A stretch of 64,000 nt of DNA. Source: Rubritepida flocculans DSM 14296. GTDB taxonomy: Bacteria > Pseudomonadota > Alphaproteobacteria > Acetobacterales > Acetobacteraceae. This document shows positions 26,350 through 32,253 of the stretch, one piece after another. The notes beneath the pieces are model-generated. The model was not told the origin of the DNA and did no database searches. It saw nothing but the letters and a program-made list of their open reading frames with translations. Made by a program: the position numbers and the translations under genes. Within the stretch, counting starts at the first letter, position 1, and every line of letters begins with the position of its first letter. The DNA is taken from the NCBI RefSeq assembly GCF_000425365.1, contig NZ_AUDH01000006.1:62001-126000 (forward strand). The letters are read 5' to 3'.

Positions 26350-30144
<3,795 letters not shown>

Positions 30145-30153
30145 GCCGCGGCG

Positions 30154-31110
30154 ATGGAGGCCATCCCCGTCCCGGTGATGTTCTTCGCGCTGGGCTTCGC
30201 CGCGGCGCTCGCGCGCAGCGACCTCGCGGTGCCCGAGGCGCTCTCCAAGGCGCTGTCGCTCTATCTGATGCTCGCCATCGGCGTGAAGGGCGGCATCGCC
30301 ATCGCCGCGCCGGGCGGGGCGGCGGGCATGCTGCCGGCGCTGGCGGCGGGCATCCTGCTCTCCTTCCTGCTGCCCATCCCGGCCTATGCGGGGCTGCGCG
30401 GCCTGACGCGGCTCGATCGGCCGACGGCGGCGGCGGTGGCGGGGCATTACGGCTCGGTCAGCGTGGTCACCTTCGCCGCGGGGCTCGCGGCGGTGCAGGC
30501 GGCGGGCCTGACCGCCGAGCCCTTCCTGCCCGCCGTGCTGGCGGCGATGGAGACGCCGGCCATCCTCACCGCCCTGCTGCTCGCCCAGCGCGGCGGGGCG
30601 GCGCGCAAGCCCAAGGACCGGGCGAAGCTGCTGCGCGAGGTGCTGCTGAACGGCTCGGTGGTGCTGCTGCTCGGCTCCTTCCTGATCGGCTGGCTGGGCG
30701 GCGCGCGGGCGGCGGCGGCGCTCTCGCCCTTCGTGGAGGGGCTGTTCCAGGGCGCGCTCTGCCTCTTCCTGCTGGACATGGGGCTGCTCGCCGCGCGGCA
30801 GTTGCGGGCGGCGCCCCAGGCGCTGGAGCCGCGGCTGATCGCCTTCGGCATCCTCATGCCGCTCTTCGGCGCGGGCTGCGGGCTGGCGGCGGGAATGGCG
30901 GCGGGGCTCTCGCCCGGGGGCGCGGCGCTGATGGCGGTGCTGGCGGGCTCGGCCTCCTACATCGCGGTGCCGGCGGCCATGCGGCTCGCGCTGCCCGAGG
31001 CGGATCCGGGCGTCTATGTCACCCTCTCGCTCGCGGTGACCTTCCCGTTCAACGTGGTGCTGGGCATCCCCATCCATCTTGCGCTCGCGCAGCGCCTGGC
31101 CGGAGGCTGA
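30154..31110 (+). CDS. sbtA: SbtA-like sodium-dependent bicarbonate transporter family protein
   Basis: The protein has 318 residues, nearly all hydrophobic, with about ten membrane helices in two repeats. GVKGGIAIA near 47-55, GHYGSVSVVTFAAGL near 97-111, the loop PKDRAKLLREVLLNGSVVLLLGS, and GSASYIAVPAAMRLALPEADPGVY near the end match the DUF897/SbtA family. Cyanobacterial SbtA (about 370 residues) imports bicarbonate with sodium; this copy is somewhat shorter. It lies 9 nt after ligA and 4 nt before a PII-like gene, the arrangement seen in sbtA-sbtB pairs. The transported ion here is inferred, not shown. Confidence 0.8.
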   Translation: MEAIPVPVMFFALGFAAALARSDLAVPEALSKALSLYLMLAIGVKGGIAIAAPGGAAGMLPALAAGILLSFLLPIPAYAGLRGLTRLDRPTAAAVAGHYGSVSVVTFAAGLAAVQAAGLTAEPFLPAVLAAMETPAILTALLLAQRGGAARKPKDRAKLLREVLLNGSVVLLLGSFLIGWLGGARAAAALSPFVEGLFQGALCLFLLDMGLLAARQLRAAPQALEPRLIAFGILMPLFGAGCGLAAGMAAGLSPGGAALMAVLAGSASYIAVPAAMRLALPEADPGVYVTLSLAVTFPFNVVLGIPIHLALAQRLAGG

Positions 31111-31114
31111 GGGC

Positions 31115-31423
31115 ATGACCCATTCCCGCAAGCGCATCGAGATCGTGGTGGAGGCGGTGCGCGCCGAGCAGGTGACCGATCTGCTCGACGCCTGCGGCGC
31201 CTCGGGCTGGACCATCCTGCCCGTCGTCTCGGGGCGCGGGCGCACGGGCATGCGCCGGGGCGGCGATCTCGCGGGCGTCTTCGACAATGTGCTGGTGCTG
31301 TGCATCGCCTCCGAGGCGGTGGCGGCGAAGGTGCTGGAGGCGCGCGAGGAGCTGCTCGGCGCGCGCCCGGCCATCGTCTCGGTCAGCGACTGCGCGGTGC
31401 TGCGCGCCGAGCATTTCCGCTGA
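31115..31423 (+). CDS. sbtB: PII-like nucleotide-binding regulator, SbtB type
   Basis: The protein has 102 residues. KRIEIVVEAVRAEQVTDLLDACGASGWTI matches the first beta-alpha unit of PII proteins (cut here for length at the conserved GWTI). SGRGRTGMRRGGDLAGVF is in T-loop position, and NVLVLCIASEAVAAKVLEA is the second unit. The C-terminal cysteine motif CGPxGC of cyanobacterial SbtB is absent. SbtB proteins bind adenine nucleotides (AMP, cAMP, ATP/ADP) and block SbtA. Immediate linkage to the transporter is the strongest evidence for the role. ATG follows GGAGGCTGAGGG. Confidence 0.75.
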   Translation: MTHSRKRIEIVVEAVRAEQVTDLLDACGASGWTILPVVSGRGRTGMRRGGDLAGVFDNVLVLCIASEAVAAKVLEAREELLGARPAIVSVSDCAVLRAEHFR

Positions 31424-31497: not shown

Positions 31498-32253
31498 GTG
31501 CACAGCCGCGCCCGACGTCCGCAGTTCTTCTACACCACCACCCCCCTGCCCTGCCCCTACCTGCCGGGCCGGACGGAGCGGAAGATCGTGACCGAACTGA
31601 CCGGCGCGGATTCCGAGGCGCTGCACGACCGGCTCTCGCGCGCGGGCTTCCGGCGCAGCCACAACATCGCCTATTCGCCCGTCTGCCCCGGCTGCCGGGC
31701 CTGCATCCCGATCCGCGTGCGGGCGGCGGATTTCGCCCCCAGCCGCACCCAGCGCCGGATCGCCCAGCGCAATGCGGGGCTCGCGGCGCGCATCACCCCC
31801 GCCCGCGCCACGGCCGAACAGTTCGCCCTGTTCCAGCGCTACCAGCAGGGCCGCCACGCCGGGGGCGACATGGCGGCGATGGGCTTCTACGACTACCGCG
31901 CCATGGTGGAGGACACGCCGATCACCACCGGCATCGTCGAGTTCCGCGACGAGGGCGGGCGGCTGCTCGGCGCCTGCCTGACGGACTGGCTTTCGGACGG
32001 GCTCTCCGCCGTTTACAGCTTCTTCGCGCCGGAGGAGGAGCGGCGCAGCCTCGGCACCCAGGCGGTGATGTGGCTGCTCGAGGAGGCGAAACGCTCCGCC
32101 CTGCCCTACGTCTATCTGGGCTACTGGGTGCCGGAGAGCCGGAAAATGGCCTACAAGGCCGGCTTCCGCCCGGCCGAGGTGCTGCTGCAAGGGCAGTGGC
32201 GGCCGCTCGCGGAGGCGGGCGCCCTGCCGACCGCGCCGGTCACGGTGGGATGA
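31498..32253 (+). CDS. bpt: Aspartate/glutamate leucyltransferase Bpt (N-end rule)
   Basis: The protein has 251 residues. It has the N-terminal FFYTTTPLPCPYLPGRTERK, the cysteine motif SPVCPGCRACIPIRV, AQRNAGLAARI and the C-terminal LGYWVPESRKMAYKAGFRP. Bacterial Bpt transfers leucine from Leu-tRNA to proteins with N-terminal Asp or Glu, marking them for ClpS/ClpAP. The start is GTG at 31498, preceded closely by GGGGG, and gives the usual family length. It converges on smpB with a 29-nt gap. Confidence 0.93.
   Translation: MHSRARRPQFFYTTTPLPCPYLPGRTERKIVTELTGADSEALHDRLSRAGFRRSHNIAYSPVCPGCRACIPIRVRAADFAPSRTQRRIAQRNAGLAARITPARATAEQFALFQRYQQGRHAGGDMAAMGFYDYRAMVEDTPITTGIVEFRDEGGRLLGACLTDWLSDGLSAVYSFFAPEEERRSLGTQAVMWLLEEAKRSALPYVYLGYWVPESRKMAYKAGFRPAEVLLQGQWRPLAEAGALPTAPVTVG

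Follow-up and report, generated by a model that had tools for sequence, protein, structure and literature searches.

The DNA analysed here, referred to below as the window, is a stretch of 64,000 nt from Rubritepida flocculans DSM 14296 in which four genes follow one another in the order ligA-sbt-PII-ate, all on the + strand. The outer two, ligA (28054-30144, +; name recognised from sequence) and ate/bpt, the gene for an arginyl-tRNA-protein transferase (31498-32253, +; ATE_N and ATE_C matches), are given as context only. Between them, sbt (30154-31110, +) begins 9 nt after the ligA stop on the same strand and encodes a transporter of 318 residues that belongs to the Sbt_1 family (PF05982), as indicated by the open reading frame, Pfam and a structure model. 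It is followed after a gap of 4 nt (stop to start) by a gene for a CPII-like regulator of the PII type with 102 residues (31115-31423, +), assigned from the open reading frame, Pfam, a profile and a structure model. Both genes are intact. A GGAGG sequence inside the 3' end of sbt (31102-31106, +) lies 8 nt ahead of the ATG of the PII gene and is probably its ribosome-binding site, so that the two genes are probably translated together; this arrangement suggests translational coupling. A preliminary description of this DNA had placed such a pair next to ligA, with 4-nt spacing and a 102-residue PII protein, and every one of these details was found in place.

The transporter matches Sbt_1 in Pfam with 358.9 bits (cut-off, 27) over residues 8-313 of 318, and its AlphaFold2 model is confident (pLDDT 91.3, pTM 0.89). 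The closest solved structure found with Foldseek is SbtA (TM 0.70-0.80), and the next matches are bile-acid symporters and their relatives. The ten-helix DUF897/SbtA family protein of the preliminary description is thus an Sbt_1 member by Pfam, and the structural match to SbtA is consistent with the ten-helix fold. In SbtA, bicarbonate contacts have been proposed for S114, Y140, S324 and S327 from a docking model, and mutants in these residues lose activity (PMC8352866). Alignment with SbtA places the putative substrate/Na+ site of the R. flocculans protein in three segments. Loop 1, Tyr99-Gly100-Ser101-Val102-Ser103 (30448-30462, +), corresponds to F110-G111-A112-V113-S114 of SbtA. The segment from Leu129 to Glu133 (30538-30552, +) has Leu129 at the position of Tyr140 and Glu133 at that of Asp144, as compared with the SbtA mutants of the same study (PMC8352866). 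Loop 2, Ala264 to Pro273 (AGSASYIAVP; 30943-30972, +), keeps S324 as Ser268, with Ala271 in place of S327 and Tyr269 in place of D325. Two of the four proposed bicarbonate contacts are therefore kept (S103 and S268) and two are changed (L129 and A271 for SbtA Y140 and S327), so the substrate may differ.

The wider family was examined in a transporter alignment of 171 rows, comprising 8 sequences of the own type from the host family, 79 of the 80 named relatives described below, 13 sequences of two other host-family types, 70 from a sample of the class and a partial SbtA. In the 163 sequences that are not of the SbtA type (own included), Y140 and S327 are replaced and A112, D144 and D325 have become S, E and Y without exception (163/163 each), while S324 is kept in 163/163 and S114 in 162/163. 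Seven alphaproteobacterial sequences of the class sample keep the SbtA residues at all ten positions compared. In the Sbt_1 tree (a single FastTree run, with a partial SbtA row), these seven and SbtA Slr1512 fall on one side and the query with 162 others on the opposite side, with a support of 100. The transporter is outside the cyanobacterial SbtA branch, judging from aligned residues and this tree, and the substrate site of the larger, non-SbtA branch is rebuilt, with bicarbonate as its presumed substrate. The earlier term 'SbtA-like' therefore holds for the Sbt_1/DUF897 family and the fold, but not for the branch or for two of the four SbtA contacts. A grouping with non-bicarbonate DUF897 proteins, which the preliminary description had regarded as a possible refutation, is borne out only in that the protein lies outside the SbtA branch, as no functionally known non-bicarbonate group was found for placement. 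The altered residues, the well-supported split and the bile-acid symporters among the structural matches would all suit a transporter that carries some other small anion, such as a short carboxylate, that shares its fold with SbtA and whose PII partner senses the energy state only.

The regulator matches the P-II family (PF00543) in Pfam with 57.9 bits (cut-off, 25), its AlphaFold2 model is confident (pLDDT 89.3, pTM 0.82) and all of the aligned PII members (50/50) match the PII model of Pfam; the only NCBIfam match of the own PII, to PG0541_fam, remained below the cut-off (27.3 versus 45 bits). Its best solved relative by sequence is CPII of Thiomonas intermedia (5d4n, E 2.7e-10; other entries 5d4o and 5d4p), with SbtB at E 0.02, and a profile of the 50 PIIs scored CPII at 71 bits, TTHA0516 at 49 and SbtB at 43 and 38. 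CPII is also the best Foldseek match of the model (E 3.6e-10, TM 0.89), with a Z of 15.3 and an rmsd of 1.8 Å over 102 residues at about 30% identity; TTHA0516 is tied with it at a Z of 15.1, and SbtB reaches 12.1 at most. The regulator is closer to CPII than to SbtB by sequence, profile and structure, and the earlier designation 'SbtB-like' is not supported. ADP, AMP and bicarbonate appear as ligands in the titles of some CPII entries in the PDB, and bicarbonate is said to strengthen the binding of adenylate nucleotides by CPII. This protein was reportedly described from carboxysome operons, a setting unlike that of the R. flocculans gene, which stands beside an Sbt_1 gene near ligA, in the order ligA-sbt-PII-ate, in a host without a RuBisCO match.

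The predicted T-loop of the regulator spans residues from about 38 to 57 (31226-31285, +), with limits drawn from the profile and the model. Gly40, Gly42 and Arg97 (31403-31405, +), the last of them a probable phosphate contact, are invariant across the 50 aligned members, so a loss of the nucleotide-binding residues, raised earlier as a possible objection, is not indicated. As the preliminary description had noted, the protein has no CGPxGC motif at its C-terminus, which reads VLRAEHFR. Its further suggestion, that this absence points to a different mode of control, was set aside because, according to a survey, about half of 460 cyanobacterial SbtB proteins lack the CGPxGC loop as well (PMC10991534), so that the absence says little.

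To define the company that this transporter keeps, named bacterial and archaeal genomes were scanned with the 8 host-family transporters, and the best 80 of at least 569 confirmed relatives were kept. In 79 of these 80, a PII gene lies directly downstream on the same strand; the transporter relatives do travel with PII genes, a check put forward in the preliminary description, and the pairing is beyond chance. Among the same best 80, 39 of the 79 pair loci also have a carbonic anhydrase gene on the strand of the pair and no more than 1.8 kb from it (measured stop to stop); this gene is downstream in 20 loci and upstream in 19. Loci with such a neighbour occur in the Rhodobacterales, Hyphomicrobiales, Sphingomonadales, Rhodospirillales and Acetobacterales. 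The Pro_CA family was confirmed by Pfam in all three of the 39 that were checked, and also for the carbonic anhydrase beside a second Sbt/PII type of the host family (4/4 overall). Such a neighbour is an argument that the pair deals with inorganic carbon. The 64,000-nt window itself yielded no carbonic anhydrase gene, and in the class sample one lies downstream on the same strand at 1 of 43 pair loci (flanks of about 1.5 kb) and on the opposite strand at 2 more, so the link is lineage-specific. For the transport of another anion, then, the carbonic anhydrase genes in two arrangements and the CPII-like partner are awkward, and so is the retention of S114 and S324; moreover, the four contacts from which the doubt arises stem from a docking model, although the mutants do lose activity. 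We therefore regard this explanation as unlikely, and bicarbonate as the better candidate.

The host assembly (3.83 Mb, 99.14% complete) contains no match to the RuBisCO large subunit (PF00016), a search that was positive in 5 of 14 control genomes, and no match to rhodopsin. It does contain two Photo_RC (pufLM) genes, clustered with pufC, bchZ, bchY, bchX and bchC, each of the latter above its NCBIfam cut-off. With pufLMC and bchXYZC present and no RuBisCO match, the host is an anoxygenic phototroph without the Calvin cycle, and its lifestyle is likely aerobic. The statement in the preliminary description that the window has no RuBisCO gene thus extends to the whole assembly. Its suggestion that the host might be autotrophic or phototrophic stands in its second half, and Calvin-cycle autotrophy was rejected, given that an assembly of this completeness has no PF00016 match.

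A sample of 367 genomes drawn evenly from the Alphaproteobacteria was used to relate the pair to phototrophy and carbon fixation. Sbt_1 occurs in 70 of them, pufLM in 25 and RuBisCO in 24. RuBisCO was counted only at 360 bits or more (24/367 class genomes and 24/150 host-family genomes), and weaker PF00016 matches (about 197-246 bits, fragments, and those below 150 bits) were taken as RuBisCO-like proteins or left out. With the host's own genome left out (366 genomes), the pair, that is, Sbt_1 with an adjacent PII gene, is present in 13 of 24 pufLM genomes versus 29 of 342 others (odds ratio 12.8, p 1e-7), in a test that, like all the pufLM association tests here, ignores the species tree, habitat and genome size. 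No association with RuBisCO was seen in the same 366 genomes (2/24 versus 40/342, p 1.0). The conclusion is unchanged under a looser count, in which the pair was found by eye in 5 of all 44 class genomes above the Pfam RuBisCO cut-off. When the genomes were collapsed to families, which number 171 going by the highest family code and are not independent of one another, the pair was present in 12 of 18 with pufLM versus 15 of 153 without (p 2e-7), and the counts for RuBisCO were 3/19 versus 24/152 (p 1.0). Among the first 50 of the best 80 named relatives, 27 have pufLM, which is about equally common with an adjacent carbonic anhydrase gene (15 of 25) and without one (12 of 25). PF00016 is matched in 13 of these 50 and exceeds the cut-off in 12, of which 5 were counted as RuBisCO (4 full-length and 1 split over contigs, the 8 others being weaker); pufLM and RuBisCO occur together in 2 of the 50.

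Within the host family (150 genomes) the relation is weak, with any Sbt_1 in 9 of 51 pufLM genomes versus 9 of 98 others (p 0.18). For the own-type pair it is not significant (4/51 versus 3/98, p 0.23), in a count that includes G115, where the transporter gene is broken, and G005, where the PII gene is at a distance of about 5 kb, and excludes six genomes that have the second Sbt/PII type. A post-hoc comparison among host-family phototrophs, to be taken as a hint only, found Sbt_1 in 9 of 32 without RuBisCO versus none of 19 with it (p 0.018). Two genomes of the same genus as the host (G044 and G124) have pufLM and no Sbt_1 match, which makes the distribution of the pair in the genus patchy.

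Another explanation is that the pair would be a device for bicarbonate, pH or Na+ homeostasis in aquatic bacteria and that its link to pufLM would reflect shared habitat and ancestry only. The pair is found in non-pufLM members of four families that also hold pufLM members, and in 15 further families without any pufLM genome in the sample; many genus names among the best 80 relatives are, we presume, those of marine or aquatic bacteria, and the missing significance within the host family points the same way. The survival of the link to pufLM after the collapse to families argues otherwise. So do the genomes with rhodopsin, which are also typical of lit waters: the pair is present in 0 of 29 rhodopsin genomes (over the cut-off) versus 38 of 297 others (p 0.03), a control weakened by the small size of many of the 29, in a draw whose genomes were inferred from the listing order. 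On balance, a pure homeostasis device seems improbable to us. Still less credible is a leftover of lost autotrophy, in which the transporter survived the loss of RuBisCO from an ancestor that had a Calvin cycle and a carbon-concentrating system: the carboxysome operons reported for CPII would suit it, but both genes of the R. flocculans pair are intact, the pair shows no association with RuBisCO in the class sample, and in the host family Sbt_1 occurs in none of the 24 RuBisCO genomes versus 18 of 125 others (p 0.08).

The explanation that we favour, and which seems to us reasonably probable, is that the transporter takes up bicarbonate together with Na+, under the control of a CPII-type sensor of adenylates and bicarbonate, and that this import feeds anaplerotic carboxylation in a phototroph without RuBisCO. 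In this mechanism, the transporter, an Sbt_1 superfamily member, would work as a Na+ symporter of the elevator type, the fold being that of the model and the Na+ coupling presumed, and it would bring bicarbonate into the cell. The PII trimer would bind adenylates and, given the ligands in the CPII titles, probably bicarbonate as well. The T-loop of SbtB plugs SbtA (PMC8352866), and by analogy with that complex the T-loop of the regulator may dock on the transporter from the cytoplasmic side and close it, presumably at low energy or once the cell contains enough bicarbonate. The imported bicarbonate would be passed to anaplerotic and biotin-dependent carboxylases rather than to the Calvin cycle. 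In a photoheterotroph, energy from light could make bicarbonate uptake worth its cost, and this would account for the occurrence of the pair with pufLM rather than with RuBisCO. These observations suggest that phototrophs without RuBisCO import inorganic carbon to aid their growth on organic food.

Some precedent for this view exists in the literature. In RuBisCO-less phototrophs of the Ca. Phycosocius clade, Sbt has been proposed to serve anaplerotic CO2 assimilation, according to a passage in the report on these bacteria (PMC10008586). The anaplerotic role that the preliminary description had offered as a possibility thus gains a parallel in another aerobic anoxygenic phototroph, with substrate and use in R. 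flocculans still argued by analogy. What is shared, an Sbt transporter in a phototroph of the Alphaproteobacteria that lacks RuBisCO, is a likeness by description, and the passage concerned does not mention a PII partner. In RuBisCO-less aerobic anoxygenic phototrophs at large, CO2 assimilation is described as anaplerotic only, for example in another study (PMC5071866). Two Sbt transporters of Thiomicrospira pelophila, Sbt and Sbt-CS, reportedly rescue an Escherichia coli strain that lacks carbonic anhydrase (PMC12628692); they are likewise proteobacterial Sbt transporters, likened here by description and not by Sbt_1 branch, but their host is an autotroph with a carboxysome. A further report lists an SBT permease in two SAR11 IIIa.3 and six LD12 genomes (PMC10030771). 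On the other hand, a review of finished genomes states that SbtA-family genes are widespread in heterotrophs too and most abundant in autotrophs (PMC10880623). This speaks partly against a reading tied to phototrophy; in our own sample, limited to a single class and a single pathway, no tie to RuBisCO was seen.

Compared with the cyanobacterial SbtA-SbtB system (Slr1512-Slr1513), the R. flocculans pair has the same superfamily fold in its transporter, a PII-fold partner encoded next door and the equivalents of S114 and S324. Unlike that system, its transporter belongs to the other branch of the family, with Y140 changed to L and S327 to A, its PII protein is nearer to CPII and has no CGPxGC loop, and its host has no RuBisCO match. 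Among open-licence full texts, no paper was found that connects aerobic anoxygenic phototrophs with a PII partner. What is new here is the CPII-like regulator, the rebuilt substrate site and the strong tie, in a sample of the class, to anoxygenic phototrophy rather than to RuBisCO.

A broader proposal may be ventured, though only tentatively and with rather less conviction than the reading of the single locus: phototrophs without RuBisCO may share an inorganic-carbon module, made up of an Sbt_1 transporter with a rebuilt site, a CPII-type sensor of energy and bicarbonate and, in some lineages, a carbonic anhydrase, which would couple light energy to anaplerotic carbon capture; CPII would then have been a regulator of Sbt transporters originally, and not a part of the carboxysome. 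If this is true, the module would concentrate carbon in cells that have no Calvin cycle, the anaplerotic CO2 flux in phototrophs would gain a dedicated machine and a genetic handle, and the control of Sbt transporters by PII proteins would not be a cyanobacterial speciality. With its naturally altered version of the SbtA substrate site, the transporter could also serve to test which residues are decisive for bicarbonate transport.

Several other settings of Sbt_1 genes came to light. In G115 (L021 and L025), in-frame stops interrupt the Sbt_1 gene, whose parts lie in different frames, and the adjacent PII gene is open. The second Sbt_1 type of the host family (L034, L037, L041, L042, L044 and L005) pairs with a different PII protein, 23-32% identical to the own PII in the five compared, and in L034 a carbonic anhydrase gene follows the pair. 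In G035 (L036:4549-10157), an Sbt_1 gene of yet another kind, without a PII gene and with a LysR regulator gene ahead of it, lies between genes for phytoene synthase and an FAD-dependent, probably carotenoid, oxidoreductase, with pufLM about 10 kb away. LysR genes also stand beside the Sbt_1 genes of the Cereibacter plasmids H1-H3; 16 plasmid records have an Sbt_1 relative, and none of them has this PII. One gammaproteobacterial family has Sbt_1 in 9 of 20 genomes; of the 11 stretches taken from it, the single locus that was read closely (L212) contains the pair, with no carboxysome gene recognised. As for the seven Alphaproteobacteria whose Sbt_1 keeps the SbtA residues (L185, L187, L188, L189, L190, L191 and L192), five have pufLM and two have rhodopsin; six of the seven genomes are in the rhodopsin draw, and all six have pufLM or rhodopsin, versus 42 of the 320 others (p 8e-6).
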